From positions 1-37,742 of the forward strand of contig CAIOLC010000167.1 of the NCBI GenBank assembly GCA_903859055.1: a stretch of DNA of 37,742 nucleotides, written 5' to 3'. The position numbers and the translations under genes were made by a program. This DNA is from an uncultured Chlorobiaceae bacterium. Lineage in GTDB: Bacteria > Bacteroidota > Chlorobiia > Chlorobiales > Chlorobiaceae. Below the pieces are notes generated by a model. It worked only from the letters and a program-made list of their open reading frames with translations, searched no databases and was not told the DNA's origin. Each line of letters starts with the position of its first letter. Position 1 is the stretch's first letter. Below, piece after piece: positions 1,450-35,876 of this stretch.

Positions 1450-2958
1450 GTGTCAAACATCAAGATGACAGGAACTGGTGCCCTTAAGCATCAGCTTGAG
1501 AAGTCCACCGGCAATGATTATAACTGCTGCTACCAGTGCGGTAAATGTACGGCTGGTTGTCCTGCAGGGGCATTCATGGACAGCCCCCCCGCACGCATCA
1601 TGCGTCTCGTCCAGGCTGGATATATTGAAGAGGCTCTGAAAAGTGAAGCACTCTGGTTTTGTGTAGGATGTATGACCTGCACAGCACGATGTCCGCAGAA
1701 TATGGATATTGCCGCAACCATGGACTCCCTCAGAGCACTTGCTCTCGAAAAGGGTCTTGTTTCAGAGAGCAAATCAAAAAAGCTTGTCAACGCATTCCAT
1801 GTCTCCTTCCTCAAAAACGTGCGCAAACATGGCCGTTTGGAGGAACTCTCCCTTGTCAACAGTTACAAGCTCCGCACCAGATCATTTTTGCAGGATGCCT
1901 CTTCAGGTGTCAAAATGATCAAAATTGGAAAGATCAATCCCCTCCATACCCTTACCGGCAAAGGCGGGGTAAAAGAGAAGGAGCAGATCGAAAATATTTT
2001 TGCTGCTTCTGAACAGGAGTCACATCTTGATGTACCGAAACGGCGCCCAATAAAAAAGCAGTTTACCCCTACTGCTCCCCTCTCTATCAAACCAGGTATG
2101 ACCATTGGGTACTATCCTGGTTGCTCACTGAGTGGCACTGCACGGGAATATGATATCTCTGTAAAAAAAATGTGCTCCCTGCTTGGTCTTCATCTCAAGG
2201 AGATTGAAGACTGGAACTGCTGCGGAGCAACATCGGCTCATGCCACCAATCATAAACTTGCTGTGCTCCTGCCTGCAAGAAATCAGGCTCTTGCCGACAA
2301 ACAGGGGCTTGATCTTGTTCTGGCTCCCTGCGCTGCCTGCCAGAACCGACAGGTCACCACACGCAGAACCCTCTTGGGCTCTCCTGAACTCTGCGAAGAG
2401 GTTCGTTCATTGACCGGAATAGCACCAACCTGCAAAGCTGAATTTATTGGCGTTACCCAACTGCTCGGCGCAATGGATCCCGAAGAGATTAAAAAAAGGG
2501 TTACAAAGCCCCTTACCGGCCTCTCTCTTGCCTGCTATTACGGCTGCCTTCTGGTGCGTCCGATGGATGAGATGGGATTTGATGACCCTGAAAACCCGCT
2601 CAAAATGGAAGATCTCATGAGTGCTCTTGGAGCCACACCGGTTGAGTGGGCATTCAAGATAGAGTGCTGCGGTGCAGGACTGACCCTCGCGCAGCAGCCC
2701 CTGGTCGAAGAGCTGACACACTCCATTGCCAAAAACGCATCCGAAAACGGTGCAGCAGCATTTGTTGTTGCCTGCCCGCTCTGCCAGGCCAACCTTGACA
2801 TGCGTCAGGGAAGTATGAGAAAACGGTTTGGGGATGTCAAGGAGATGCCGGTTTATTACATTTCAGAACTCGTTGCCATCGCTTGTGGCGCCGATCCATC
2901 TGAAGTTGCTGTAGGTGAGCATTTTGTTCCTGCACTCGATCTTGTATCGAAACTTTAG
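1450..2958 (+). CDS. Heterodisulfide reductase HdrC-HdrB fusion subunit
   Basis: This 502-residue protein joins two subunits that are separate in methanogens. Residues about 27-200 resemble HdrC, with two [4Fe-4S] motifs (CYQCGKCTAGCP and CVGCMTCTARCP). Residues about 215-502 resemble HdrB, with two CCG domains: cysteines in GYYPGCSLSG, WNCCGA and APCAACQ, then CYYGC, IECCGAG and ACPLCQ. CCG cysteines bind the non-cubane clusters that reduce a disulfide in HdrB. In this setting the disulfide partner is unknown; a small thiol protein such as DsrC is an inference from sulfate-reducer work. The start is GTG at 1450; an ATG at 1465 is the alternative and neither has a clear Shine-Dalgarno sequence. 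It is the first gene of a six-gene plus-strand operon. Confidence 0.9.
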   Translation: MSNIKMTGTGALKHQLEKSTGNDYNCCYQCGKCTAGCPAGAFMDSPPARIMRLVQAGYIEEALKSEALWFCVGCMTCTARCPQNMDIAATMDSLRALALEKGLVSESKSKKLVNAFHVSFLKNVRKHGRLEELSLVNSYKLRTRSFLQDASSGVKMIKIGKINPLHTLTGKGGVKEKEQIENIFAASEQESHLDVPKRRPIKKQFTPTAPLSIKPGMTIGYYPGCSLSGTAREYDISVKKMCSLLGLHLKEIEDWNCCGATSAHATNHKLAVLLPARNQALADKQGLDLVLAPCAACQNRQVTTRRTLLGSPELCEEVRSLTGIAPTCKAEFIGVTQLLGAMDPEEIKKRVTKPLTGLSLACYYGCLLVRPMDEMGFDDPENPLKMEDLMSALGATPVEWAFKIECCGAGLTLAQQPLVEELTHSIAKNASENGAAAFVVACPLCQANLDMRQGSMRKRFGDVKEMPVYYISELVAIACGADPSEVAVGEHFVPALDLVSKL

Positions 2959-3054
2959 AGGAGGTTCAACCATTTGAACTAATACCAGACGCATGGGATG
3001 CCTCAGTGCCCCATGCACCGTTCGATCAGCAGCTTCATACTAAAAGATTGTATC

Positions 3055-5025
3055 ATGGCAAAAATTGGTGTATTTATATGTCATTGCGGCGAAAATATCG
3101 GCGCCAAGGTTGATTGTACAAAACTTGCAGCAACCATGGGAGAACATCCCGGCGTAGCTATAGCCGTCGATTATAAATATTTCTGCTCCGACCCCGGACA
3201 GGAGAGCGTTAAAAGGGCTATTCGCGAAAACAACCTCACCGGTGTCGTTGTTGCTGCCTGTTCACCGAGAATGCACGAAGCCACCTTCCGCAAAGCCTGC
3301 GCTGAAGCTGGCCTCAACCCCTATATGTGCGAGATTGCCAATATTCGTGAGCAGTGTTCATGGGTGCACAACGATCCGGTTATGGCAACAGAAAAAGCTG
3401 CCGATATCACCCGATCCATGGTTGAGAAGGTAAAACGCAACAACAATCTTCAGCCTATTGAGGTGCCGGTAACCCGTCGTGCACTGGTGATTGGAGGAGG
3501 CATTGCAGGCATCCAGGCGGCCCTTGATATTGCCAACGCAGGTCAGGAGGTGGTTCTTGTCGAACGGGAGCCAACCCTCGGCGGCCACATGGCGCAGTTG
3601 TCGGAGACCTTCCCGACGCTTGACTGCTCTCAGTGCATCATGACACCGAGGATGGTTGAGGCTGCCCAGCATCCAAAAATTCGGCTGCTCACCTACGCCG
3701 AAGTTGTGGGCGTTGATGGCTACATTGGCAACTTCCATGTCAAGGTCAAGATGAAAGCCCGCTATGTTGACACCGAGAGTTGCACAGGGTGTGGCGACTG
3801 TATCACCAAATGCCCCAACAAAAAGATTTCAAGTGAATTTGACTGTGGACTTGGCAAACGACCAGCCATCTATACCCCATTCGCCCAGTCTGTACCCAAC
3901 AAACCGATCATCGACAAGGCAAACTGCACCTACTTCAAGAACGGCAAATGCAAAGTGTGCGTCAAGGTCTGTCAGCTCAACTCCATCAACTTTGAGATGC
4001 AGGATGAGTTCATCGACCTTGAAATCGGTGCCATTGTCGTTGCCACCGGATTCCAGGTTCAGGATAACTCGGTTTATGGCGAGTATGGCTATGGCAAATA
4101 CAAGGATATCATCAACGGCTTGCAGTTCGAGCGCCTTGCATCGGCCAGCGGCCCCACCTCCGGAAAAATTCTTCGCCCCTCTGATGGTAAAGAGCCTGAG
4201 ACCATTGTTTTTATCCAGTGCGCCGGATCACGCGACCCGTCAAAAGGGGTTCGCTACTGCTCCAAAATCTGCTGTATGTACACCGCAAAACATGCTATGC
4301 TCTACGCCCATAAAGTGCATGGTGGAAAATCCAACATCTTCTACATGGATATTCGTGCTGCGGGCAAAGGATACGACGAATTTACCCGCAGGGCAATCGA
4401 GGACGATGAGGCATCATATCTTCGTGGCAGAGTCAGCAAGGTATGGGAAGAGAATGGCAAGCTGATGGTTCGTGGAGTTGATACCCTTCTCGGCAAGCCG
4501 GTTGTTATTGCCGCCGACATGGTGGTACTTGCAACCGCTATGGTTTCCCAGCCGGATGCTAAGGATTTTGCGAAAACCATCGGCATTGGCTATGACGAAT
4601 ATGGCTTCTTTAACGAGGCGCATCTCAAGCTTCGTCCGGTCGAATCGTCAACAGCCGGAATTTTTCTTGCCGGAGCCTGTCAGTCGCCAAAAGATATTCC
4701 TGACTCAGTTGCCCAGGCCTCGGCCTCCGCAAGCAAAATTCTTGCCCTTTTCAGCAAGGAGAAGCTTGAGCGTGAGCCAGTTGTGGCAACCAACAACGAA
4801 GCCACCTGTGCCGGATGCTGGGGATGCGTGCTTGCCTGTCCCTATAACGCTATTGATAAAAAGGATATTCTCGACCGCTCGGGCAAGGTGATCAAGCGGG
4901 TCGCATCCGTCAATCCCGGTCTCTGTCAGGGTTGTGGCACCTGCGTCTCCTTCTGCCGTTCGAACAGTCTTGATCTGGCAGGATTTACCGAAAAACAGAT
5001 TTTTGCAGAGGTCATGGGCCTCTGA
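3055..5025 (+). CDS. hdrA: Heterodisulfide reductase subunit A-like flavoprotein (HdrA)
   Basis: This 656-residue cytosolic flavoprotein would be the bifurcating core of the complex. It starts with the HdrA N-terminus MAKIGVFICHCGENIG. A Rossmann FAD motif (VIGGGIAGIQAALD) follows at about residue 147, with the LGGHMAQLSETFPTLDC segment just after. Iron-sulfur motifs follow: CTGCGDCITKCP near 244, a CKVCVKVC group near 295, and two C-terminal ferredoxin-type motifs, CAGCWGCVLACP near 587 and CQGCGTCVSFCR near 626. Length and order fit full HdrA rather than the shorter QmoA. ATG 3055 is preferred over the in-frame ATG at 2998 because family members begin at this point; neither has a strong ribosome site. 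It lies 96 bases after hdrCB. Confidence 0.92.
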   Translation: MAKIGVFICHCGENIGAKVDCTKLAATMGEHPGVAIAVDYKYFCSDPGQESVKRAIRENNLTGVVVAACSPRMHEATFRKACAEAGLNPYMCEIANIREQCSWVHNDPVMATEKAADITRSMVEKVKRNNNLQPIEVPVTRRALVIGGGIAGIQAALDIANAGQEVVLVEREPTLGGHMAQLSETFPTLDCSQCIMTPRMVEAAQHPKIRLLTYAEVVGVDGYIGNFHVKVKMKARYVDTESCTGCGDCITKCPNKKISSEFDCGLGKRPAIYTPFAQSVPNKPIIDKANCTYFKNGKCKVCVKVCQLNSINFEMQDEFIDLEIGAIVVATGFQVQDNSVYGEYGYGKYKDIINGLQFERLASASGPTSGKILRPSDGKEPETIVFIQCAGSRDPSKGVRYCSKICCMYTAKHAMLYAHKVHGGKSNIFYMDIRAAGKGYDEFTRRAIEDDEASYLRGRVSKVWEENGKLMVRGVDTLLGKPVVIAADMVVLATAMVSQPDAKDFAKTIGIGYDEYGFFNEAHLKLRPVESSTAGIFLAGACQSPKDIPDSVAQASASASKILALFSKEKLEREPVVATNNEATCAGCWGCVLACPYNAIDKKDILDRSGKVIKRVASVNPGLCQGCGTCVSFCRSNSLDLAGFTEKQIFAEVMGL

Positions 5026-5077
5026 TGAAGAGCCTTTGTATTGTGAACGAACTGAACTTTGTTACAGGAGCAAGCTG

Positions 5078-5527
5078 ATGAGTGAACCTTTTGAACCAAA
5101 AATTGTCGCTTTTGTCTGCACCTACTGCACCTACGCAGGGGCCGATCTTGCAGGGACAAGCCGATTAAAATATGCGCCGAACGTGCGCATCGTCCGTCTT
5201 CCCTGTACCGGAAGGATCAGTCCGATGTTTATTCTTAAAGCGCTGCAGAAGGGGGCTGATGGCGTGTTGGTCAGTGGCTGCCACCCGGGCGACTGCCACT
5301 TCACCCATGGAAACTATCATGCACGGCGGAGGTGGACCGTTTTTCGTGCACTTCTTGAGTTTACAGGCATACCACTGGAGAGGGTAAAATTTTCATGGAT
5401 CAGTGCCGCTGAGGGTGGAAAATTTGCCGATTTCATGAACAGCGTTACTGAAGATATCCGAAAACTTGGCCCTTTTGATCAGTACCAGAGGTTGATCAAC
5501 GAAACTGAAGCTCCGGCGACACTTTAA
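5078..5527 (+). CDS. flxD: MvhD/FlxD-type [2Fe-2S] electron-transfer subunit
   Basis: This 149-residue protein has the MvhD-family pattern: CTYCTYAGAD near the N-terminus, RLPCTGRI, then SGCHPGDCHF, which together supply the cysteines of a [2Fe-2S] cluster. In methanogens MvhD connects a [NiFe] hydrogenase to HdrA. No hydrogenase gene is present here, and the following genes are flavin oxidoreductase subunits, so it more likely passes electrons from FlxA/B/C to HdrA. The ATG at 5078 is chosen because ACAGGAG lies 7 bases upstream and the protein matches the family from there. A longer upstream open frame overlaps hdrA and is not credible. Confidence 0.88.
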   Translation: MSEPFEPKIVAFVCTYCTYAGADLAGTSRLKYAPNVRIVRLPCTGRISPMFILKALQKGADGVLVSGCHPGDCHFTHGNYHARRRWTVFRALLEFTGIPLERVKFSWISAAEGGKFADFMNSVTEDIRKLGPFDQYQRLINETEAPATL

Positions 5528-5539
5528 AAATAAGAGGTA

Positions 5540-6370
5540 ATGAGTATACAGGAACAGTACAAAAAAAGAGTCAGGGAGATCCTCTCCAGTGGGGCTGTAA
5601 AAATGGTTATCGGCTATCAGGCAGGCACAACGGCCGACCGCCGTCGTCCGCTCTTTATCCGCACCCCTGAAGAGGCAGAGAAGCTTGTTCTTGACAGTGC
5701 CTGCATCGCCAACCTTTCGGGCTATCTGGTCACAGAAGGGCTGTTAAGCGATGAAAAAAGTGTCGGTATCTTTCTCCGCCCTGATGGCATTCGTTCCATC
5801 AACATTCTGGCAGCAGAGGCTCAGCTCAATCCGGAGCAGGTTGTCATCCTTGGATTTGATGGTAATGAGAAAGAGGTCACTGCGCTTCAGGGAGAGAAGG
5901 CCAAAGACTTTACAGCCATTATTGCATCCATCAAGGAGCATGCACCCTCTGCACCCCGAAATCCCCAGCTTGAGCAGATTGAGAAGATGAGCCCGAAAGA
6001 GCGCTTTGAATTCTGGCAGGCGGAGTTTTCACGCTGCATCAAATGCTATGCTTGCCGTCAGGCCTGCCCCATGTGTTACTGCCGAAGATGTATTGTTGAC
6101 AGCAATCAGCCGCAATGGGTCAATACCTCCTCTCATACGCTCGGTAACCTTGAGTGGAATGTGGTGCGTGCTTTCCATCTTTCCGGCCGTTGTGTCGGGT
6201 GCGGCAACTGCGACAGGGCTTGCCCGGTCAATATTCCACTTCGCCTGATCAATGCTAAAATGGCAGGAGAGGTACTTGGTGCATTCGATCATTTTGCCGG
6301 CATGAGCGAGACCCAGGAACCGGTGCTTGCAAGTTTCAAAAAGGACGATTCCGAGACATTCATTCTCTAA
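5540..6370 (+). CDS. flxC: FlxC-like iron-sulfur protein of the Flx-Hdr complex
   Basis: The 276-residue product has no recognisable catalytic domain in its first 160 residues. It then carries an unusually dense cysteine block at 166-184 (CIKCYACRQACPMCYCRRC) and a ferredoxin-type motif CVGCGNCDRACP at 218-229. This layout is known from FlxC and hydrogenase/formate dehydrogenase-associated ferredoxin subunits. The likely job is wiring electrons between the NAD(H)-reactive FlxA and the Hdr side. It begins 12 bases after flxD with AAGAGGT just before the ATG. The B versus C label follows the Desulfovibrio flxABCD scheme from memory and is less certain than complex membership. Confidence 0.78.
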   Translation: MSIQEQYKKRVREILSSGAVKMVIGYQAGTTADRRRPLFIRTPEEAEKLVLDSACIANLSGYLVTEGLLSDEKSVGIFLRPDGIRSINILAAEAQLNPEQVVILGFDGNEKEVTALQGEKAKDFTAIIASIKEHAPSAPRNPQLEQIEKMSPKERFEFWQAEFSRCIKCYACRQACPMCYCRRCIVDSNQPQWVNTSSHTLGNLEWNVVRAFHLSGRCVGCGNCDRACPVNIPLRLINAKMAGEVLGAFDHFAGMSETQEPVLASFKKDDSETFIL

Positions 6371-24454: not shown

Positions 24455-25471
24455 ATGAATTTTGCACTGACTAAAAAAATCACACTTTTTGCCGCACTGG
24501 CATTGGCTTCCGGACTGCCGGGTTCACTTGCTGGGGCTGCGGGTGCCTCTACCCTGCTCAATGTCTCTTATGACCCCACAAGGGAACTCTACCAGAGCGA
24601 AAATTCCGCTTTCATCAAATACTGGCAGCAGAAAACCGGCCAGACGGTGAAAATTGATCAATCGCACGGCGGCTCGGGCAAACAGGCTCGCGCCGTCATT
24701 GATGGTCTGGAGGCTGATGTGGTGACGCTCGCCCTCGCTTATGACATTGATGCCATCTCCGACAGCAAACTTCTCCCCGCCAACTGGCAGAGCAGGATGC
24801 CCAACAACAGCACCCCCTACACCTCGACCATTGTCTTTGTGGTGCGCAAAGGGAACCCGAAGCAGATCAAGTCGTGGGACGATCTTGCTAAAACGGGCGT
24901 TTCAGTCATCACTCCGAATCCAAAAACATCGGGTGGTGCCCGCTGGAACTACCTTGCAGCATGGGGATACAAACAGAAGCAGACTGGTTCAACAGAGCAG
25001 GCAAAGGCTTTTGTCAAATCAATTTACAAGAATGTCCCTGTGCTTGATACCGGTGCCCGTGGCTCAACGTTGACCTTCGCCCAGCGCGGTCTTGGTGACG
25101 TGTTGCTGGCCTGGGAGAATGAGGCTCACCTGATTCTCAAGGAGTTTGGAGCCGACAAGTTTGAAATTGTCGCTCCGGCAGTCAGCATTCTTGCGGAGCC
25201 ACCGGTCGCTGTTGTTGATAAAAACGTTGACAAGCACGGCACCCGTAAGCTTGCCGAGGCTTACCTGAACTTCCTCTACACTCCACAGGCACAGGATATT
25301 ATTGCGCAAAACTCCTATCGCCCTCGCAATCCGGCTGCACTGAAGAAATATGCCTCCAACTTCCCGAAGATCAAGCTCTTTACCCTGAACGAGGTTTTTG
25401 GAAGCTGGCGTGCTGCCCAGAAAGCGCACTTTAATGATGGTGGCGTTTTTGACCAGATCTACATTCCCTGA
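24455..25471 (+). CDS. sbp: Sulfate/thiosulfate ABC transporter, periplasmic binding protein
   Basis: This 338-residue protein has a signal peptide in the first 27-30 residues ([20 protein letters not shown]). The mature start [13 protein letters not shown], the segment [14 protein letters not shown] and the [18 protein letters not shown] stretch are diagnostic for the Sbp/CysP family, where serine and backbone amides bind a dehydrated sulfate. Length is normal. AAGGGAAGA lies about 7 bases upstream of ATG 24455. A terminator follows between this gene and cysT, so the binding protein is probably made in excess. Sbp versus CysP (sulfate versus thiosulfate preference) cannot be decided. Confidence 0.92.
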
Positions 25472-25495
25472 TTCATCTGAACTCTTTTCACCGTG

Positions 25496-25535
25496 CGTGC
25501 AGGGTGCCCCGTTTTCTCACCCTGCACGTTTTTTT
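25496..25535 (+). terminator. Intra-operon terminator between sbp and cysT
   Basis: CGTGCAGGGTG (25496-25506) and CACCCTGCACG (25518-25528) form a perfect 11-base-pair stem with an 11-base loop, followed by seven T (25529-25535). It sits between a secreted binding protein and its permease genes, where partial termination commonly sets stoichiometry. Confidence 0.88.
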
Positions 25536-25551
25536 ATTATTGAAACACACC

Positions 25552-26385
25552 ATGGGACTTTTTCAGACGAAAAGACGCAACATTCTTCCCGGTTTTGGGT
25601 TGTCGATGGGCTACACCGTCTTCTACCTCTCGGCAATTGTGATTGTGCCACTGAGCATGATATTTTTCAACACCTTCCCCATGGGATGGGATCCCTTTGT
25701 TCACGCCGTAACAGCTCCCCGTGTCCTTGCCTCCTATAGATTGAGTTTTTCAACGGCACTTTTTGCCGCACTTTTCGATGCCGTGGCAGGGCTGCTGACC
25801 GCCTGGGTACTGGTACGTTACCGTTTTCCAGGCAAGCAGTTTCTTGATGCTCTGGTTGACCTCCCTTTTGCTTTACCGACGGCCGTTGCCGGTATCTGCT
25901 TCGCCACACTCTACTCTCCAATGGGATGGCTTGGTGCCACCTTGACCAAATGGAATATAACCATCATCAACTCGGCAACCGGCATTGTGATCGCCCTTGT
26001 GTTTATCGGCTTTCCCTTTGTGGTTCGTACCATTCAGCCGGTACTTGAAGAGGTTGAGCAGGAGATTGAAGAGGCGGCGCACTGCCTTGGTGCCACCCGC
26101 TGGCAGACCTTTCGGAAAATCCTGCTACCACATCTCTTCCCCGCCCTGCTGACCGGTTCAACCCTTGCTTTTGCCCGGGGAATTGGAGAGTATGGCTCGG
26201 TTATCTTTATCGCGGGAAACCTGCCCATGAAGACCGAAATTGCCCCCTTGATGATTATGTCGAAACTGGATCAGTTCGACTATGCCGGTGCCTCCGCTGT
26301 GGCGCTGGTGCTTTTGCTTATCTCCTTTTCCATGCTCCTGGCACTGAACGCCATTCAGGAGTGGCAACAGAAAGAATACCGTTAA
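25552..26385 (+). CDS. cysT: Sulfate ABC transporter permease CysT
   Basis: This 277-residue inner-membrane permease starts at ATG 25552. The longer open frame starting at 25504 would begin inside the terminator stem and is rejected. It has about six hydrophobic segments. The cytoplasmic EAA loop reads EEAAHCLGATRWQTFRKILLPHLFPALLTG, and the conserved GIGEYGSVIFIAGNLPMKTEIAPL stretch is specific for CysT/CysU. It forms the membrane channel together with CysW. The next gene begins only 6 bases after its stop. Confidence 0.92.
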   Translation: MGLFQTKRRNILPGFGLSMGYTVFYLSAIVIVPLSMIFFNTFPMGWDPFVHAVTAPRVLASYRLSFSTALFAALFDAVAGLLTAWVLVRYRFPGKQFLDALVDLPFALPTAVAGICFATLYSPMGWLGATLTKWNITIINSATGIVIALVFIGFPFVVRTIQPVLEEVEQEIEEAAHCLGATRWQTFRKILLPHLFPALLTGSTLAFARGIGEYGSVIFIAGNLPMKTEIAPLMIMSKLDQFDYAGASAVALVLLLISFSMLLALNAIQEWQQKEYR

Positions 26386-26391
26386 TCGATT

Positions 26392-27258
26392 ATGCTGAAA
26401 CAACCAACGCCCGAAACTGCGCCCCTTGTCCGAAAAAGAGTTTCAGACCCTCTGCCGGTACAGATTTTACTGATCGGGCTGATGCTGCTCTTTTTTATTG
26501 GATTTATCTTTCTGCCCCTTGGCCTGGTCTTTGCGCAGGCGTTCCAGAAAGGGTGGAGCGTCTATCTGGAATCCATCACCGAGTCTTATGCGCTTGAGGC
26601 GGTAAAACTGACGCTGACCACCGTGGCCATTGTTGTGCCGCTGAACGCCTTTTTTGGCGTGACTGCCGCATGGGCCATCACCAAATTCAATTTTGTCGGA
26701 AAAGCTGCGCTGAAAACACTGCTGGATCTGCCGTTTGCCGTCTCTCCGGTTATTGCCGGTCTTATTTTTGTGCTGCTTGTCGGCAGCCGCACCCCTTTCG
26801 GGAGCTGGCTGGGAGAGCATGGCATCAAAATCATCTTTTCAACACCGGGCATCGTCATTGCCACGCTCTTTGTTACCTTTCCCTTTGTGGTACGTGAACT
26901 GATTCCGCTGATGGAGGCACAGGGACGGGATGAGGAGGAGGCAGCACTTACCCTTGGTGCCAGAGGGTGGCAGATCGTTGGAAAAATCACCCTGCCCAAT
27001 ATCAGTTGGGGACTTCTTTACGGGATGATTCTCTGCGGTGCTCGCTCTATCGGTGAATTCGGAGCAGTCTCTGTTGTCTCCGGCCATATTCGGGGCCAGA
27101 CCAACACCGTCCCCTTGCATGTAGAGATACTCTACAGCGAATACAATTTTGCAGCCTCCTTTGCCGTGGCCTCAATTCTGGTTTTCCTTGCTCTGCTGAC
27201 CGTGGGGCTCAAGGTGAGCATGGAAAAAAAGTTTCAGAAAAACAGCTCTCATCATTAG
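26392..27258 (+). CDS. cysW: Sulfate ABC transporter permease CysW
   Basis: This 288-residue membrane protein is the second half of the sulfate channel. The EAA loop reads EEEAALTLGARGWQIVGKITLPNISWGLLYG, and GARSIGEFGAVSVVSGHIRGQTNTVPLHVEILY is the CysW-specific conserved stretch. The N-terminal 40 residues are soluble and carry one hydrophobic helix after residue 20. It is directly followed by cysA, 9 bases downstream. Confidence 0.92.
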   Translation: MLKQPTPETAPLVRKRVSDPLPVQILLIGLMLLFFIGFIFLPLGLVFAQAFQKGWSVYLESITESYALEAVKLTLTTVAIVVPLNAFFGVTAAWAITKFNFVGKAALKTLLDLPFAVSPVIAGLIFVLLVGSRTPFGSWLGEHGIKIIFSTPGIVIATLFVTFPFVVRELIPLMEAQGRDEEEAALTLGARGWQIVGKITLPNISWGLLYGMILCGARSIGEFGAVSVVSGHIRGQTNTVPLHVEILYSEYNFAASFAVASILVFLALLTVGLKVSMEKKFQKNSSHH

Positions 27259-27267
27259 GAACCGATC

Positions 27268-28341
27268 ATGGGTATAGAACTTAAGAACATTACCAAAAAA
27301 TTTGGCGGCTACACGGCCATCGATGATATCAGCCTCAACGTCGCTTCCGGTGAGCTGGTTGCCCTTCTTGGGCCGTCAGGATGCGGAAAAACCACACTGC
27401 TGCGCATTATTGCGGGTCTTGAGCTGCCGGATGGCGGAAAAATCATTCTTGAAGACAAAGACACCACCAACCTTCCTCCCAGGGAAAAAAATGTCGGTTT
27501 TGTCTTTCAGCATTACGCCCTCTTCCGTCGCATGACCGTCTTTGAAAACGTCGCCTTCGGTCTGAAGGTGCTACCTCGCAAGGCGCGTCCATCCGGCACG
27601 GAGATCCGTGACAGGGTGGAGCACCTCCTGAAAATGGTGCAAATGGAGTGGGCTCTCAAGCGCTACCCCTCCCAGCTTTCGGGGGGACAGCGTCAGCGCA
27701 TCGCCCTTGCCAGAGCACTGGCCGTTAATCCAAAGGTGCTGCTGCTCGACGAGCCCTTCTCGGCCCTTGACGCCAAGGTGCGCCAGGAGCTGCGCCGCTG
27801 GGTGAGAAAGCTGCACGATGATATTCATGTGACCAGCATCTTTGTCACCCATGACCAGGAGGAGGCTCTCGAACTGGCAGACCGGATTGTGGTGATCAAC
27901 AAGGGGCGGATTGAACAGCAGGGCACTCCACAGGAGGTGTACGACCATCCGGCCAACGCTTTTGTCTATAACTTTCTCGGCAACGTCAATGTTTTTCAGG
28001 GACGTGTTCACAACGGCAAAGTGACGCTTGGTTCCCACCGGGTTGATGCCCCTGATGAGTTTAAACATTCAGAGGAAAAAACAAGTCAGGCGTTTGTGCG
28101 TCCCCATGAGATCGGTATCAGCCGAATACGCAGCAGCGAAGCTGATCTGGAGGGCACCATCCAGGAGGTTCGGCTCATGGGTGGCCAGATTGGGCTGAAC
28201 CTGGAGTGCGAAGAGTTTGAGCACCCCATTGAGGCGGAGATACCGAGAGATCTCTACATCAACCTGCAGCTCTCAAGGGGTGACAAGGTCTTTGTCTCCC
28301 TGAACCGGGTCAAGGTGTTTACGGGGGATTATGTGATTTGA
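27268..28341 (+). CDS. cysA: Sulfate ABC transporter ATP-binding protein CysA
   Basis: This 357-residue cytosolic ATPase powers CysTW. Walker A is GPSGCGKTT near residue 35, the Q-loop is in [14 protein letters not shown], the signature is [15 protein letters not shown], Walker B is [12 protein letters not shown] and the switch histidine is in [10 protein letters not shown]. Residues after about 240 form a TOBE regulatory domain. The N-terminal [18 protein letters not shown] is CysA-like. It ends the sbp-cysTWA operon; a cysteine-biosynthesis gene is not seen in the window. Confidence 0.92.
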
Positions 28342-29081: not shown

Positions 29082-30010
29082 TTACGCAGCCCAACTGCCG
29101 TCAACATCCCCCCTCACAATGCCGATCAGATGTACATCGAGGTCGGTAGCCAGCGTTACCGGTGTCGGATTGACTGGCCACACGACATTGGTTCGCGACA
29201 TGGTCTCACTGCCAACACTCTCCGGCACAAACAGCCACTCACTGGCTGGCGCAGTATCCAGTTTGACCGCCATTTTCAGGATATTGAGGGCATCAGAAGC
29301 CCTCACCTGACCATCCTTGTTGCTATCTGCTGCAAGATACTGGTATGGTGAAACCGCGCGACCATCAGCATTGGGGTTCATACCAACAGCGATCTTCAAC
29401 GCGGCAAGTGCATCATGGGTTTTGACCGCGTTGCTCTCTGCCATGCCCGACACTTTGGCGCTGGTCAGTGCATAGGTACCATCAGGCATGTCGATGTGCT
29501 GGAAGAGACCATCAGTGCCGGTCGTCATGCTGTCTGAAACAATACTGAACGCAGCAATGATCTCTGTCCCCAATAACCCAGAGGTTAACGACAATTCAAT
29601 GCGTTGCGCATCCGCAGGGGAATTCGCCGCCATCTGCGGTGAAAGGGTAAGGGTTCCAAGTTTTACCGGGCCGGACGACAAGGGAGTTATACCCATTCCT
29701 GCAAGAAGGAATTTACCATGCATCTCGTTATTTGCTGCGGAATTCCACCCTGAAGGCAACCCGACAGCATCCTGCCATGTGGCAACTAATCCTGTCGAAA
29801 AGGCTAACTCCAGTTGCACACTCTCAATATCAGATTTTGCAGAGGTCTCCCATATCTCCATGGTTCTGGTCCCATCTGCGGCTAACTGTACATTTCTGAA
29901 TTCAATTGGTTGTGTTCCTGTGGATACAGGAGCTGAAACGAGAGTACTCGTGACATCTGTAATGGGATCTCCCGTTTTCCAGAAAGTCACTGATCCTGTT
30001 TGATTATGGA
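29082..30010 (-). repeat. C-terminal module copy A (cohesin-like, dockerin-like, GDVDGSW tail)
   Basis: Residues about 1620-1928 of the giant protein. It shares long identical stretches with copy B at 34971-35876, for example TFWKTG/LFWKTG, EIWETS, ATWQDA, GPVKLGTLTL, DGTYALTSAKVSG, SPYQYLAAD and SETMSRTNV. The DNA is also visibly similar (around 29180-29250 against 35070-35140). Confidence 0.85.
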
Positions 30011-33000
30011 ACGTTGAGCCAGCTTTAGTTATAAAGTCAAAGGTCGTCGTGCCTGCATAGCTATTCCCAGCAAAATCATTTATTGCATCCGCGCCAACAG
30101 TGATAAAGTAACTGGTTTTATATTCGAGGTCTGTTGTTGGATTGATAGTAAGCGTATTACCCGTGATGGTGAGGTTTGTGCTTGTCGCAGCATCGTAGTG
30201 GGCAACAAGCGTACCGGCAGCCGATCCACTGTAGATTTCTATAGCACCCGATCCCTTCTGGATTGCTTCGCTGAAGGTGAACACAATGTCATTACCTACA
30301 GCAATGCCTGTTGCTCCATCGACCGGGCTAGCGGAAATGAGAGTCGGCGCAGTATTATCAGAATAGTAATACGTTGATGAGAGCTGTGCAACACGCACCG
30401 AATCGACATCAAAGTAATAGTCTGTGTTGTCGACAAGATTTATGACTGGATTCAGTGCATCGCTGAATCCTTCTATCCATTCCTTCCCTGGTGCCCAGAT
30501 ATTCAGGTGCAGTGCCATCGGCTGCTGTGGAATATTGGTGGTCTCCACGCGCACCAACTGACCATCAACAATCCATCGTACTGCATTTTTGAACCATTCG
30601 ATGCGATAGATATGGGCATCGGTTAGATCACCAGAAATTGGATTAAATTGAGGATTACCTGCGCCACGAGGTTCATTCGCATAGATGTTTGTCTGAATCT
30701 GATCAAGTTTATTCGAAACCGCCTCAAAATCTATCTCGTCATGGAGGCTCCCTGAGTTATTGATGTAGCTGAACATGCCTCCAACAATACCATCTACCAC
30801 GGGATTAACAAAATGGGCTTTAATCTCAAAAACAATACCACCCGCATCGTTTGAAAATTTTGCAGTGGTGATTGCTTCTGAGCCATAAAACGATGGAACC
30901 TGGTTTGGATCGGCCGGATTATAGGTTGGGTTGAACGTATCAAGCTTGAGATGTAACAGGCCATCAGAGACACCAGGAAGCTCCTGACGCTGTTGAGTAC
31001 GTCCGTAAAATGACGGATTATCGATCGCTTTCCAGTGGTTATAATCCCAGCTAGCCGGATTCAGTGAAGTATTGAAATCATCAGTGAAAAGAGTTGCCTT
31101 CTCCACGATTGGCCCATCTGTGGTAAAATCATAGGTTAAGGCTGCAACGGGGTTTCCAGCAAGATCGTTGACTGAACCTGCATCGAGGGTGACGTAATAG
31201 TGCGTGCTCCCGGCAAGATCGGTTGTTGGGTTGACGATCAGTGCATTCCCTGAAATCGTGATGTTGGGGCTTTTCGCCACATCGTAACTTGCCACCACTG
31301 CTCCCGTGGCCGAACCGCTGTGCAAAACTACAGCTCCAGTGCCTGCTTTAACCGGCACATTGAAGGTGAACTCAATATTATCCGAAGCCATAACAGCAGT
31401 TGCTCCTTCAGCAGGACTAAGAGTAAGCAGTGTTGGTGACAAGGTACCTTCAGGATTAACCAGCACCGTTTGAAGACTACTCACCGTCTCGTAGTTCATC
31501 AGATTATCCCAATACCCTGCCTCAACCGTAATGTGCTTGCCTACCTGATACTGAGTCAAGCTTAGCGTGTTCCCCCCTGTAATGACAAGTCCATCAGCTC
31601 TCCACACATAAGAGGGTGGATTCCCAATACCATCCAAATCTTCAAGCGTATGACTGGCGGTCAATACCTGGCCCTGAACAGCACTGCCGGTGATGAGAAC
31701 AGTGCCCGTTGGCGCATTATTGAATTTTGTGAGTGTGCTTCCGGTAACACTTAATGCCCCACTTGCTCCCTGATTACCCGTATTTCCGTCTGTGAACGTC
31801 CAGTCAATCTGCACGGTAGCGGTCGAGGCTTCGGAGTTGTTGCTGTATGCAATCTGCTGAAGTACAGAGTTGACATAGCCTTGCGTTGCATGGTCGTTAA
31901 AGGTGATTTCCAACTGCCCGTCGTTGTTGGAGTTGATAACACCAATCGACAGTCCGCCTATAGTGAGATTGCGGCCATCACTCAATGCTCCAAGAGTACC
32001 GGAATGTTTAGCAGAAAAGAGATCGTTGCTGTTGGCACCGCCATGACGTGAAAGGGTGAGAGTCGCGCCAGAATAGTTGCCAGCCATGGCAAGATCTGCA
32101 TCATAAATCTGAACATCGCTGTCCAGCACCACTGGTGTTCTGTTTCTGTTGTAGACACCCCTGCCATCAAGAGTGTTGATTTGGCCAAAATCATTATCAA
32201 GACTTCCGTCGGTGTTATATCGAACGACAACAACATCACAAACATTGTCTCCATTCCATATATTGTTGCGACGATCGACGCTCCCCGACACCAGAATTTT
32301 GCCGTCTGATTGCACTGTCATATCAGCACCATAGCAAGATCCCCACGCAACATTATTGATAGTGGTAGTAACTCTTCCGTCACCATCGAAGCTTGTATCA
32401 AGGGTTCCGTCACTCTGGTACCGCACTACTGCAATTCCCCATAAAGAGCCCCACTGGGCAGTGCCCGCAACAACAATTTTACCATCGCTCTGGACGGCGA
32501 CACTGTACCCTTTGTCGTATTGACTCAGGCCGGTAGTCACGATACCATCACCATCAAAGCTTATGTCCAGTTTGCCATCACTGTTATAACGTACCAAAGT
32601 AAAGTCATATCTCCCTATGTCAGCGTTATAAGTCATTCCGGCCACAAGAATTTTATTGTCGAGCTGAAGTGTCACACTCTCTGCCGAACTCCAACTATTG
32701 AGACCAGTGGTTAAATCGGTGATGACCTGCCCTCCGGTACCAAACATGGTATCAGGAGTGCCGTCTGTATTGTAACGCGCCAGCGCGAAAGCACGTGAAG
32801 AGGATCCTGCAACAAGGATTTTGCTGTCAGACTGCACTATAACGCTGTTACCCTGATCAGTGCCTCCATTAAAATCCGTAGCAAGCTTGCCATCATCAGA
32901 AAACGTGGTATCAGGCGTTCCGTCCATGTTGAAACGCAGCAAAACAAAGTCAGCATTGCTCCCGCCAGCCAACAGGATCTTTCCGTCAACCTGCACGACA

Positions 33001-34868
33001 CCCATGCTTGCGTAAAAAGGCGATAGAATATCCATCATTACTTTACCATCACCATCAAAGCGCGTATCCAAAGTGCCATCACTGTTGTAACGTGCCAAAG
33101 TAATGCGAGAGTCAGAAGTGCCTGCTACCAGAATTTGCCCATCACTTTGAATCGTGAGACTCCTGCAATACTCCAAACCACCAAAATCAGTGGTCAATAT
33201 GCCATCTTCAGAAAAGCTTGCGTCGAGGCTGCCATCAGCATTATAGCGTGCCAATGCAAAATCACTCGTAAAATTAGCACTGCTGTATCCGGCGACAAGA
33301 ATCTTCAAGTCCCCCTGGAGAGCAATACTGTAGCCAGTGTCAGCTCCGCCAAAATCAGTGAAACTTGTCCCATAACCGTTCTTAAAAAATGTCGGAGCGT
33401 TATTTTCTGGTGTAACACGCACTGTTGCCTGAACAGCCGCAATTGACTCAGCCCCTCCATCATCTCTGGCGACTGCTGTGAACGCATTCACGGTACCATT
33501 GGCACTGGAATCCGGCATCCAGTACGCCTGATGTGTGGCATCAACAGCGTTATTCGTTGCCGCATCATAGGCTGTGGCATTGCTTGCGTCTGTACCTATC
33601 AATAGTGTGCCGCTGCTCACCGCCTTGATCACAAAAGCATCAACAGTGCCATCACTATCAGCAGCATTGCTTTTTGCAAGAAGCTCTGCAAAAGTAACGG
33701 CAACCTTCAGCCCTTCACTTGTTGAGCATATTTCACCAGTAAAAGCACTAAATGCTGGAGCATCGTTTGTTGCGATAATTTTTATGCCAAAGGGTGCGAC
33801 TCCAACGCTTAAACCGCTATAAACGCGAAGATCGAATACTCTTGTACTGCCATTAACAACCTTGTCAGAAGTACTGTTGAACTGCAAGGTATCAAGCAGC
33901 AGTTCATAGCTTGCCATGTCAGAGTACACTGCACTGCCACCGGAACCATCCAGGCTGGTAAAAGTAACCATACGGGTATTGTTTTCATCAGCAATATCAT
34001 ACCTGAAATACGTGCTGTTGAAAAGCACTTCGTCATTCGCTGATGTGCTGCTGGTAAGATCAATCTCGGTACTACCCAAAACGAGAACATCACCCGTGGC
34101 TACAGTGGTACTGTCAATACTAACAGTGAAACTCGAAAGCAAACAAGTCGCCCCCCAAATGTTTGACAACCCGCCATTATTAGTAAAGGACACTGCATGT
34201 GAGCCATCATCTGGACCATTAACCTCCGTAAAATCTCTCCAAATAAAATAATTAAAATCTCCCCGGTCCAGATCTATTGAAAGCACAAACGTAGAGCCAT
34301 AAGCCAAAGCATTCTCAAAAGGAGCAGCAACAGAATCGGCGTTCCCTGAAAACACGTCCGGCAACCAACTACCGCCCTTACTCCTTGCACCCACAAGACC
34401 ATTGAAGGCTGTCACAGCGGAGCCCAATACCTTCGCCACACCATCAACAAAAGCACGACCCTTTTCGCCTGCGCCAGTCAAACATGACCAAAAGTGCAAA
34501 GAGGGCGCTACAGCAAACTTGGCATCCGAAGGCACAGCAAAGTCATCAACCTGAAGTTTCCTTCCCCCAAGAGTTATGGCACCTGGCTGGCCATGCCCCA
34601 AAAAGTGAATTCGCTCATAACCACAAGAAAACGCCTCTTTGAGTAAACTTGAAAAATCTGCGCACAACTCGACACGCCAGAGATCCGTTCCGGTCTCAAG
34701 GCGATCCAGCAAAACATCAACATCTTCAAGAGTGGCATCAGCAATAACCAGCGCCCGCCCCTCTTGACTTTTGATGTCATCCTGAGCTTCCATACAAGGA
34801 GTGCGCATCAACAAATTAATGCTTTGCGAGGTAACACTTTGGGAAGCAACTACAGTTTCACTTTTCAT
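29082..34868 (-). CDS. Giant surface/secreted protein: DUF4347, delta-60 repeats, Ig-like, GH16, cohesin-like and dockerin-like domains
   Basis: This 1928-residue protein starts at ATG 34868, with GAGGTG 5 bases upstream. No Sec signal peptide is visible, which with DUF4347 hints at type I secretion (inference). Order by residue: DUF4347 about 35-195 (HFLGHGQPGAITLG and HFWSCLTGAGEKG give a histidine/cysteine pair); cadherin-like sections 196-490; seven delta-60 propeller repeats 494-893; further beta domains to about 1150; bacterial Ig-like (Big_5) 1155-1250; GH16 laminarinase/agarase-like domain 1255-1497 with catalytic HDEIDFEAV near 1376; second Ig-like 1515-1620; cohesin-like 1624-1804; dockerin-like 1809-1873 with a calcium loop (DSNKDGQVRASDA); tail ending GDVDGSW. 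The GH16 could cut beta-glucans or galactans outside the cell. Confidence 0.88.
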   Translation of the reverse strand: MKSETVVASQSVTSQSINLLMRTPCMEAQDDIKSQEGRALVIADATLEDVDVLLDRLETGTDLWRVELCADFSSLLKEAFSCGYERIHFLGHGQPGAITLGGRKLQVDDFAVPSDAKFAVAPSLHFWSCLTGAGEKGRAFVDGVAKVLGSAVTAFNGLVGARSKGGSWLPDVFSGNADSVAAPFENALAYGSTFVLSIDLDRGDFNYFIWRDFTEVNGPDDGSHAVSFTNNGGLSNIWGATCLLSSFTVSIDSTTVATGDVLVLGSTEIDLTSSTSANDEVLFNSTYFRYDIADENNTRMVTFTSLDGSGGSAVYSDMASYELLLDTLQFNSTSDKVVNGSTRVFDLRVYSGLSVGVAPFGIKIIATNDAPAFSAFTGEICSTSEGLKVAVTFAELLAKSNAADSDGTVDAFVIKAVSSGTLLIGTDASNATAYDAATNNAVDATHQAYWMPDSSANGTVNAFTAVARDDGGAESIAAVQATVRVTPENNAPTFFKNGYGTSFTDFGGADTGYSIALQGDLKILVAGYSSANFTSDFALARYNADGSLDASFSEDGILTTDFGGLEYCRSLTIQSDGQILVAGTSDSRITLARYNSDGTLDTRFDGDGKVMMDILSPFYASMGVVQVDGKILLAGGSNADFVLLRFNMDGTPDTTFSDDGKLATDFNGGTDQGNSVIVQSDSKILVAGSSSRAFALARYNTDGTPDTMFGTGGQVITDLTTGLNSWSSAESVTLQLDNKILVAGMTYNADIGRYDFTLVRYNSDGKLDISFDGDGIVTTGLSQYDKGYSVAVQSDGKIVVAGTAQWGSLWGIAVVRYQSDGTLDTSFDGDGRVTTTINNVAWGSCYGADMTVQSDGKILVSGSVDRRNNIWNGDNVCDVVVVRYNTDGSLDNDFGQINTLDGRGVYNRNRTPVVLDSDVQIYDADLAMAGNYSGATLTLSRHGGANSNDLFSAKHSGTLGALSDGRNLTIGGLSIGVINSNNDGQLEITFNDHATQGYVNSVLQQIAYSNNSEASTATVQIDWTFTDGNTGNQGASGALSVTGSTLTKFNNAPTGTVLITGSAVQGQVLTASHTLEDLDGIGNPPSYVWRADGLVITGGNTLSLTQYQVGKHITVEAGYWDNLMNYETVSSLQTVLVNPEGTLSPTLLTLSPAEGATAVMASDNIEFTFNVPVKAGTGAVVLHSGSATGAVVASYDVAKSPNITISGNALIVNPTTDLAGSTHYYVTLDAGSVNDLAGNPVAALTYDFTTDGPIVEKATLFTDDFNTSLNPASWDYNHWKAIDNPSFYGRTQQRQELPGVSDGLLHLKLDTFNPTYNPADPNQVPSFYGSEAITTAKFSNDAGGIVFEIKAHFVNPVVDGIVGGMFSYINNSGSLHDEIDFEAVSNKLDQIQTNIYANEPRGAGNPQFNPISGDLTDAHIYRIEWFKNAVRWIVDGQLVRVETTNIPQQPMALHLNIWAPGKEWIEGFSDALNPVINLVDNTDYYFDVDSVRVAQLSSTYYYSDNTAPTLISASPVDGATGIAVGNDIVFTFSEAIQKGSGAIEIYSGSAAGTLVAHYDAATSTNLTITGNTLTINPTTDLEYKTSYFITVGADAINDFAGNSYAGTTTFDFITKAGSTFHNQTGSVTFWKTGDPITDVTSTLVSAPVSTGTQPIEFRNVQLAADGTRTMEIWETSAKSDIESVQLELAFSTGLVATWQDAVGLPSGWNSAANNEMHGKFLLAGMGITPLSSGPVKLGTLTLSPQMAANSPADAQRIELSLTSGLLGTEIIAAFSIVSDSMTTGTDGLFQHIDMPDGTYALTSAKVSGMAESNAVKTHDALAALKIAVGMNPNADGRAVSPYQYLAADSNKDGQVRASDALNILKMAVKLDTAPASEWLFVPESVGSETMSRTNVVWPVNPTPVTLATDLDVHLIGIVRGDVDGSWAA
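30380..31105 (-). other. GH16 glycoside hydrolase domain within the giant protein
   Basis: Residues about 1255-1497, starting at LFTDDFNTSLNPASWDYNHWK and ending near YYFDVDSVRVAQLSS. The active-site motif is EIDFE (complement of 30724-30738), the E-x-D-x-E form with the nucleophile and acid/base glutamates. The strands YRIEWFKNAVRWIVDGQLV and PMALHLNIWAPGKEW are standard in the family. Substrate specificity is not readable. Confidence 0.8.
32185..33375 (-). repeat. Seven tandem delta-60 (DUF5122) propeller repeats, protein-level
   Basis: Each unit of about 50-65 residues contains a QSDGKILVAG-like strand, then a (A/V)(L/V)(A/V)RYN.DG(T/S)LD..F..DG turn. Units differ enough in DNA that this is a coding repeat, not a simple DNA repeat. 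Unit boundaries are hand-drawn. Confidence 0.85.
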
Positions 34869-34970
34869 AAATCACCTCACAGATATCTGTCATGATAAAA
34901 ATACTGGCTTGCCTGAATCCATCGTAGAGAAACATAACATAAGAAGAGCTCCTTCTTATCGCCAGAAAGA

Positions 34971-35876
34971 TTACACCAACCAACTGCCATTAACATCACC
35001 AGTAACAATACCGATCAAATTCAGCTCCTGGTCCGTATCCAGCGTAATTGGTACAGGGTTGTCTGGCCAGATAACATTGGTTCTCGACATGGTTTCACTG
35101 CCGATGCTCTCAGGAACAAACAGCCACTCCCTGGCTGGCGCTGTACTGAGCTTGACCGCCATCTTCAGAATATTGAGAGCATCGGCAGCCTTGATCTGGC
35201 CATCCTTGTTCACATCAGCCGCCAGGTACTGATAGGGCGATACTGCACTTCCATCGGTGTTGGGGTTCAGACCTACAGCGATCTTCAACGCAGCAAGCGC
35301 ATCAAGCACATTGACTGCGTTGCTTTCAGCACTGCCGGAGACTTTGGCGCTGGTCAACGCGTATGTGCCATCAGCCATGTCAGGATGCTGATAAAGAGCA
35401 TCCATGCCGGTGATCATGCGGTCCGAAGTGATACTGAACGGTGACACGGTGTCATTGCCCAACTGACCCGCGCTCAATGAGAGGTCAAAATGCTGTGGAT
35501 TGGCTGGAGCCGTGAGCGTCAGGGTTCCAAGCTTGACTGGCCCGACTGACAAGGGAGTTATGCTCATTCCGCTGAGCATGAAATGCCCAGGTTTATCGCT
35601 ATTTCCCAGGAGTTTCCAGCCTGATGGCAAACCTGAAGCATCCTGCCATGTGGCGGCGGATCCAGCAGAGAGAGAAAATTCCAGTTTCACGCTCTCGTTA
35701 TTGCTCTTTGGGGAAGTTTCCCAGATCTCTATGGTTCGGCTTCCATCTGCGGATGCCTGTATATTTCTGAATTCAACAAGTTGTGTGCCAGCGTCGGCAG
35801 AAGCTGAAACGAGAGTGCTCATGACACCTGTGATGGGAGCGCCTGTTTTCCAGAAAAGCACTTCTCCTTTGAGATC
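34971..35876 (-). repeat. C-terminal module copy B (cohesin-like, dockerin-like, GDVNGSW tail)
   Basis: Last 300 or so residues of the second giant protein. Same order as copy A: cohesin-like strand set, dockerin-like pair (VLDALAALKIAVGLNPNTDG and AADVNKDGQIKAADALNIL), conserved SEWLFVPES-like AREWLFVPES, and GIVTGDVNGSW at the end. Confidence 0.85.

Follow-up and report, generated by a model that had tools for sequence, protein, structure and literature searches.

Two neighbouring giant proteins share a C-terminal module

Positions 29082–35876 of a 37,742-nucleotide contig (C167 of a 2.65-Mb draft Chlorobium genome; the window, by which we mean the whole stretch of DNA that was analysed) are exactly the outer limits of two related C-terminal modules, carried by two neighbouring giant proteins, here called A and B, of a green sulfur bacterium from a lake. 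The module, in which a cohesin-like domain is predicted to be nested in a transthyretin/CnaB-like domain and to be followed by a dockerin-like domain and a conserved tail, is found at the very end of many otherwise unrelated giant proteins of the Chlorobiaceae. We give an even chance to the reading that it serves the giant surface or extracellular proteins of Chlorobium and its relatives as a common C-terminal tag for export and folding, and perhaps also as a surface-docking unit. The two proteins and their modules, which we delimited by BLASTP and a search of the window's own genome, are as follows.

29082–34868, minus strand: protein A, 1928 residues; DUF4347 (residues 40–185), delta-60/DUF5122 repeats from about residue 510, two Big_5 domains, GH16 (1342–1464), C-terminal module (1622–1928)
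29085–30005, minus strand: C-terminal module of protein A, 307 residues
34971–37742, minus strand: protein B, at least 923 residues, its 5′ end lying beyond the contig end; DUF7619, a weak fn3, He_PIG, C-terminal module (623–923)
34974–35876, minus strand: C-terminal module of protein B, 301 residues

The original prediction, made from the DNA alone, held that the last 300 or so residues of both proteins match over their full length and that both ends read GDV(D/N)GSW. Both statements hold: residues 1625–1926 of A and 626–921 of B are identical at 207 of 302 positions (69%, E = 1e-128 by BLASTP, with modules of 301–307 residues), and GDV(D/N)GSW followed by two residues closes both proteins. 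The ratio of nonsynonymous to synonymous substitution rates (dN/dS, Nei-Gojobori) between the two modules is 0.19, and it lies at 0.10–0.21 for pairs among the six modules compared, apart from one nearly identical pair at 0.375; the module is under purifying selection. Together, the 69% identity, the dN/dS of 0.19 and the invariant residues described below rule out that the shared ends are chance resemblances or random degenerate tails with no conserved fold.

A cohesin-like domain is nested in a transthyretin/CnaB-like domain

Structural modelling and natural variants give the following order, in which all boundaries within the module are approximate: a transthyretin/CnaB-like domain with a cohesin-like domain predicted to be inserted in one of its loops, then a dockerin-like domain, then a tail of the form W(L/R)FV...GDV(D/N)GSW. 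The parts of the protein B module, and those of the protein A module placed by alignment with it, are listed here, all on the minus strand.

35805–35876: protein B, first transthyretin/CnaB-like strands, residues 1–24, GxVxFWKTGxPIxxVxSTL
35433–35804: protein B, inserted cohesin-like domain, residues ~25–148, recognised by Foldseek and missing from short natural versions
35337–35432: protein B, remaining transthyretin/CnaB-like strands, residues ~149–180, SDxMxTGxDxLYQHxDMxDGTYALTS
35142–35336: protein B, dockerin-like domain, residues ~181–245, first loop degenerate, second loop DVNKDGQIKAAD canonical
34974–35141: protein B, tail EWLFVPES...LIGIVTGDVNGSWLV, residues ~246–301
29934–30005: protein A, first CnaB-like strands, residues 1–24
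29544–29933: protein A, inserted cohesin-like domain, residues ~25–154
29448–29543: protein A, remaining CnaB-like strands, residues ~155–186
29253–29447: protein A, dockerin-like domain, residues ~187–251
29085–29252: protein A, tail ending GDVDGSWAA, residues ~252–307

An AlphaFold model of the long module, built from 52 diverse copies, has a mean predicted local distance difference test score (pLDDT) of 90.7 and a predicted template modelling score (pTM) of 0.79. Its best matches in the PDB, found with Foldseek, are the Clostridium perfringens cohesins 2vo8 and 2jh2 (E from 2.8e-5, probability 1.0, template modelling (TM) score by target 0.54–0.62), so that the insert is predicted to adopt a cohesin-type beta-sandwich; the Pfam cohesin family (PF00963) matches none of the 52 copies at E up to 0.1. 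The dockerin part is matched by Pfam Dockerin_1 (PF00404) in 50 of the 52 copies at the same threshold, with a best E of 6.7e-5; the window copy scores 20.2 bits (E = 7e-4), which is below the curated cut-off of 22.9. Its second Ca2+ loop is canonical (D221 and D232 in 52/52 copies, N223 and D225 in 51/52), and the first loop retains only its last aspartate, Asp 192. Invariant residues of the tail are Gly 289, Gly 293, Asp 294 and Gly 297.

The nesting is revealed by short natural versions of the module: residues 1 to ~22 and those from 149 onwards are kept, and precisely the stretch between them is missing. For a model of this short form (pLDDT 90.2, pTM 0.86), the structural matches are the transthyretin-like domain of carboxypeptidase D (with an E of only 0.035, despite a probability of 1.0, 31% identity and a root-mean-square deviation of 1.4 Å over 51 columns), CnaB domains and, more weakly, dockerins, among them the ScaB dockerin 4uyq/4uyp (TM score by target 0.55, at a weak E of about 1). 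In our alignment of 20 short forms (first row L068:7673–8185), CarboxypepD_reg matches 13, at best with E = 6.5e-8; the compact N-terminal domain thus has a CnaB/transthyretin-like fold. Because the short versions lack precisely the cohesin-like part and their model matches such domains, we conclude that the cohesin-like domain has been inserted in a CnaB/transthyretin-like domain, and natural versions without exactly the insert (residues ~23–148) make this a clean case of domain insertion. The original prediction was therefore right to see a cohesin-like and a dockerin-like part and wrong in placing them in simple tandem, an arrangement that we dropped in favour of nesting.

We note two further resemblances. 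A Foldseek match that hinted at kinship with CLIPPER/DUF11 came down, on reading of the paper, to generic immunoglobulin-like similarity. Separately, the anammox S-layer protein Kustd1514 (NCBIfam NF052345) is weakly matched in its C-terminal part by 4 of the 20 short units (E = 9e-4 at best), and a relation of the short units to an S-layer protein is possible.

The module is strictly C-terminal on unrelated proteins without signal peptides

Among loci fetched by similarity to the module sequence, all 53 of the 53 distinct long modules from Chlorobiaceae end 0–5 residues before the stop codon and none is internal; the same holds for the end position of all 17 distinct copies (17/17) that lack the cohesin part. 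The payloads that precede the module are unrelated to one another and include DUF4347 with delta-60 repeats and GH16 (protein A, whose GH16 domain contains EIDFE, by eye the usual GH16 catalytic pattern), RTX with cadherin, FG-GAP, choice-of-anchor I with alkaline phosphatase, and lipase with RTX and RCC1. Choice-of-anchor families of Pfam occur with differing C-terminal sorting tails. At their other end, complete Chlorobiaceae carriers have no hydrophobic stretch: their best mean over 11 residues is at most 2.24, whereas gammaproteobacterial and Saprospiraceae relatives reach 2.3–3.3. Judged by hydropathy only, the Chlorobiaceae carriers thus lack an N-terminal Sec signal peptide, as type I substrates do. 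Such a distribution, with a single end shared by many unrelated proteins that lack N-terminal signals, is typical of C-terminal export or sorting tags.

The high-confidence single-chain models (pTM 0.79 for the whole module and 0.86 for the short form) would suit a self-folded cap, in which the dockerin and cohesin-like parts pack within one chain and only protect or stabilise the protein end. We consider such a cap rather unlikely, since by itself it leaves unexplained why so many unrelated payloads without signal peptides bear it, and the carrier with a choice-of-anchor domain suggests a role in sorting or anchoring.

DUF4347, the N-terminal domain of protein A, recurs in that position among other carriers, and these proteins may thus have it as another shared marker; our literature search found no function for it.

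A type I secretion operon adjoins carriers in two genera

The export systems encoded by the genomes of the genus, many of them fragmented drafts, narrow the choice of route. SprA (TIGR04189), the marker of type IX secretion, is present in 15 of 16 outgroup genomes and in 0 of 25 genomes of the genus, and we therefore rejected a type IX C-terminal domain as an explanation of the module. A PrtD-type type I operon, consisting of genes for two ATP-binding cassette (ABC) proteins, HlyD and TolC, is in contrast common in the genus, with HlyD in 46 of 65 genomes; genes for a PrtD-type ABC protein, HlyD and TolC are present on contig C210 of genome G000. In the closed Chlorobium genome G107, a giant of 4661 residues lies upstream of, and on the same strand as, two PrtD-type ABC genes, HlyD and TolC, separated from them by a single open reading frame (ORF) of 260 residues. 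This giant ends in a module-like unit (E = 2e-22 with the short-form model), above which a cohesin-like stretch can be read by eye. Similarly, a contig of Chlorobaculum sp. 24CR has three giants, two of them ending in the short unit, ahead of the first ABC gene of an operon; the product of that gene is 66% identical to the first ABC protein of the operon described above.

Of the three roles that the original prediction had offered (self-folding, head-to-tail assembly, or an export or anchoring signal), the last fits best because the module is strictly C-terminal, its payloads are unrelated, signal peptides are lacking and a type I operon adjoins carriers in two genera. The prediction had also named linked transporter genes as a check: the operon stands beside carriers in both genera, but most modules lie far from it. 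The link between the module and type I secretion is circumstantial. In type I transport of HlyA, the C-terminus emerges first and folding outside the cell is driven by Ca2+ (PMC4648471), a route for which a dockerin that binds Ca2+ at the very end of the chain would be well suited. We infer that a type I machine would recognise the module end, where the GDV(D/N)GSW-containing tail is the leading candidate; that the module would be moved out first, ahead of the rest of the chain; and that the dockerin would then bind extracellular Ca2+ and fold together with the CnaB- and cohesin-like sandwich. The folded module could stop the chain from sliding back and seed folding of the long stretch behind it, in the manner of RTX repeats. 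A more tentative idea is that the exposed cohesin and dockerin parts keep the protein attached to the cell or to its sister proteins.

Several observations weigh against an export-and-folding tag. Besides the distance of most modules from the operon, PrtD-type HlyD and ABC genes are missing from the assembly in 3 of 19 carrier genomes (G270, 98% complete and with six module matches; G012, 85%; G308, 80%), and across the 65 genomes of the genus carriers do not have HlyD clearly more often than the rest (16/19 versus 30/46, Fisher p = 0.11). In G013 and G017 the giant beside the operon ends in a hydrophobic segment. Moreover, in Saprospiraceae the short unit is internal or stands at the end of proteins that have a signal peptide, so the fold alone does not amount to an export signal.

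Four giants with RTX repeats, which stand beside a type I operon in 3 of the 4 loci, have at their end a conserved hydrophobic helix (GAGVALLGAGALGVLAWIIF and similar) where the carriers have the module; they are possibly a membrane-retained partner.

L120:3–2525: helix-ended RTX giant
L121:1–4455: helix-ended RTX giant
L072:8491–14625: helix-ended RTX giant
L073:6733–11286: helix-ended RTX giant

One could imagine that the dockerin serves surface retention by binding a separate, anchored cohesin protein, possibly one of these giants, which end in SAGEMLAGVAGLGLLAFIIF-like segments and two of which start or continue, by eye, with cohesin-like sequence. We regard this as very unlikely: no significant cohesin match was found in the helix-ended giants with Pfam (E up to 1) or in a sequence search of the PDB, and a hidden Markov model of the cohesin insert matches nothing in them.

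Carriers can be numerous and often lie in head-to-tail arrays

The genome-wide search that the original prediction had called for yielded 8 module copies or fragments in the window's own genome. Named relatives with the module are Chlorobiaceae, mostly metagenome-assembled genomes from lakes; in a first sample of the genus it was present in 7 of 25 genomes (the window's own counted) and in 0 of 16 outgroup genomes, and a scan with the short-form model found a match in 19 of 65 genomes of the genus. The richest set described here is that of a congener, G013, with 40 matching stretches on ~30 intact ORFs of 600–9840 codons. Summed from our table, its carriers total ~62,000 residues, or ~190 kb of 3.3 Mb (~6% of the genome). 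The carrier ORF of 9840 codons (module at G013:C27:29650–30546) is among the larger bacterial genes.

Carriers often lie in head-to-tail arrays, as on contig C21 of G013, where seven consecutive large genes on the same strand (11995–57442) each have a module unit at the end. The pair of proteins A and B is retained in the same order in G017, with payloads 98% (A) and 90% (B) identical. In G013, the payload of B (70–73% identical) occurs in two genes whose ends differ: the first has a long module that is 70% identical, the second a divergent short module at 37% identity. The payload therefore stays while the end is exchanged. Outside Chlorobium, the short unit is also found in Chlorobaculum (and, within the genus, in a C. 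chlorochromatii metagenome-assembled genome, contig L073, on an ORF of at least 2214 residues), in a few Proteobacteria, and in many copies in Saprospiraceae and other Bacteroidota. Judging from this distribution, the short unit is probably older than the cohesin-like insert.

With up to ~30 carriers per genome, every long-form protein holding both putative partners, the dockerin of one secreted giant might bind the cohesin-like insert of its neighbour, giving head-to-tail or networked assemblies at the surface, with type I export a separate matter. The support for the cohesin-like fold, the conservation of the Ca2+ loop and weak extra cohesin-like matches elsewhere in some carriers agree with such pairing. 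We nevertheless think it unlikely, if the strongest of the alternatives. Many members without the insert retain the C-terminal dockerin and tail, so that the insert is not essential, and a binding module would not need a strictly C-terminal position. Further, specificity in type I dockerins of cellulosomes is determined by positions 10–11 of the Ca2+ loop, and these are mostly Ala-Ala here. Pairing might also be combined with the export-and-folding tag: type I-exported giants would carry a nested module that emerges first, folds on Ca2+ and links sister giants or a cell-bound cohesin protein. This secretion-coupled assembly seems to us rather improbable; if true, an exchangeable set of up to ~30 giants would coat a green sulfur bacterium, and a photosynthetic Gram-negative organism would have a plug-and-socket surface resembling a cellulosome.

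Relation to known dockerin modules and sorting tails

In its working the module resembles a C-terminal sorting tag, probably one for type I export, on a plan like that of the X-dockerin dyad. In the dyad of cellulosomal scaffoldins (a C-terminal X module plus a type II dockerin; PDB 4u3s, 4wi0 and 3kcp), a small beta-sandwich directly precedes a C-terminal Ca2+-binding dockerin, much as one precedes the dockerin-like, putatively Ca2+-binding domain here. Unlike the dyad, the sandwich of the module matches transthyretin-like and CnaB domains and holds a cohesin-like insert, its dockerin-like domain precedes a 55-residue W(L/R)FV...GDV(D/N)GSW tail, and its host is a green sulfur bacterium. With C-terminal signals of RTX-type type I substrates it shares its C-terminal place, its presumably uncleaved state and its putative Ca2+ binding, and their proteins share the lack of a signal peptide, RTX repeats in some carriers and a PrtD/HlyD/TolC operon nearby in two genera; it differs in being a folded module of 170–300 residues rather than a short signal after nonapeptide repeats, and in that its export is putative. 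Like the C-terminal domains of type IX secretion, PEP-CTERM and LPXTG tails, it is a conserved end on many unrelated surface proteins, one of which has a choice-of-anchor I domain, but the genus lacks SprA and the module end has neither a transmembrane helix nor a sortase motif.

By its parts, the module is to be filed among the non-cellulosomal cohesin/dockerin modules, as a variant of them: with those of C. perfringens (2vo8, 2jh2) it shares a cohesin-like fold and a dockerin-type Ca2+ loop outside cellulosomes, and it differs in that the cohesin is nested in another domain and the unit is fixed C-terminally on many giants per genome. Within our incomplete coverage of the literature we found no report of the module, of the nested arrangement, of its use as a C-terminal tag or of dockerins as type I signals. 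Chlorobium genomes contain some of the largest known bacterial genes, including those for RTX/adhesin-like proteins, and we found no published demonstration of the export route of these giants. As a C-terminal mark, the module provides a handle with which to list the whole set of giants in any genome, opens a test of type I export in a green sulfur bacterium, and lets one ask whether cohesin–dockerin pairing serves surface assembly outside cellulosomes.

Neighbouring genes and module remnants

Beside the giants of the window and on the opposite strand (24455–28341, plus strand) lie genes for a sulfate/molybdate-type ABC transporter (solute-binding protein, permease-like genes and ATPase). The gene order of this transporter is matched on contig C2 of G013 (2254–6136), and the locus is therefore syntenic.

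A plasmid search with protein B matched its upstream repeats in plasmids of rhizobia and cyanobacteria; of the eight records listed, only one extends as far as the first residues of the module, and none covers it.

Near carrier genes there are many short open frames of 30–160 codons that contain only dockerin-plus-tail pieces, some broken by stops (L014, L015, L017, L042, L046, L048, L067, L070 and others); they are probable remains of truncated giants. In two genomes, proteins that by eye resemble PD-(D/E)XK recombination-promoting nucleases of the Rpn type adjoin module genes, and these could have a bearing on array expansion and C-terminal exchange.

L010:5465–6517: Rpn-type nuclease-like protein
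L129:9785–10765 (G013 C2:29785–30765): Rpn-type nuclease-like protein

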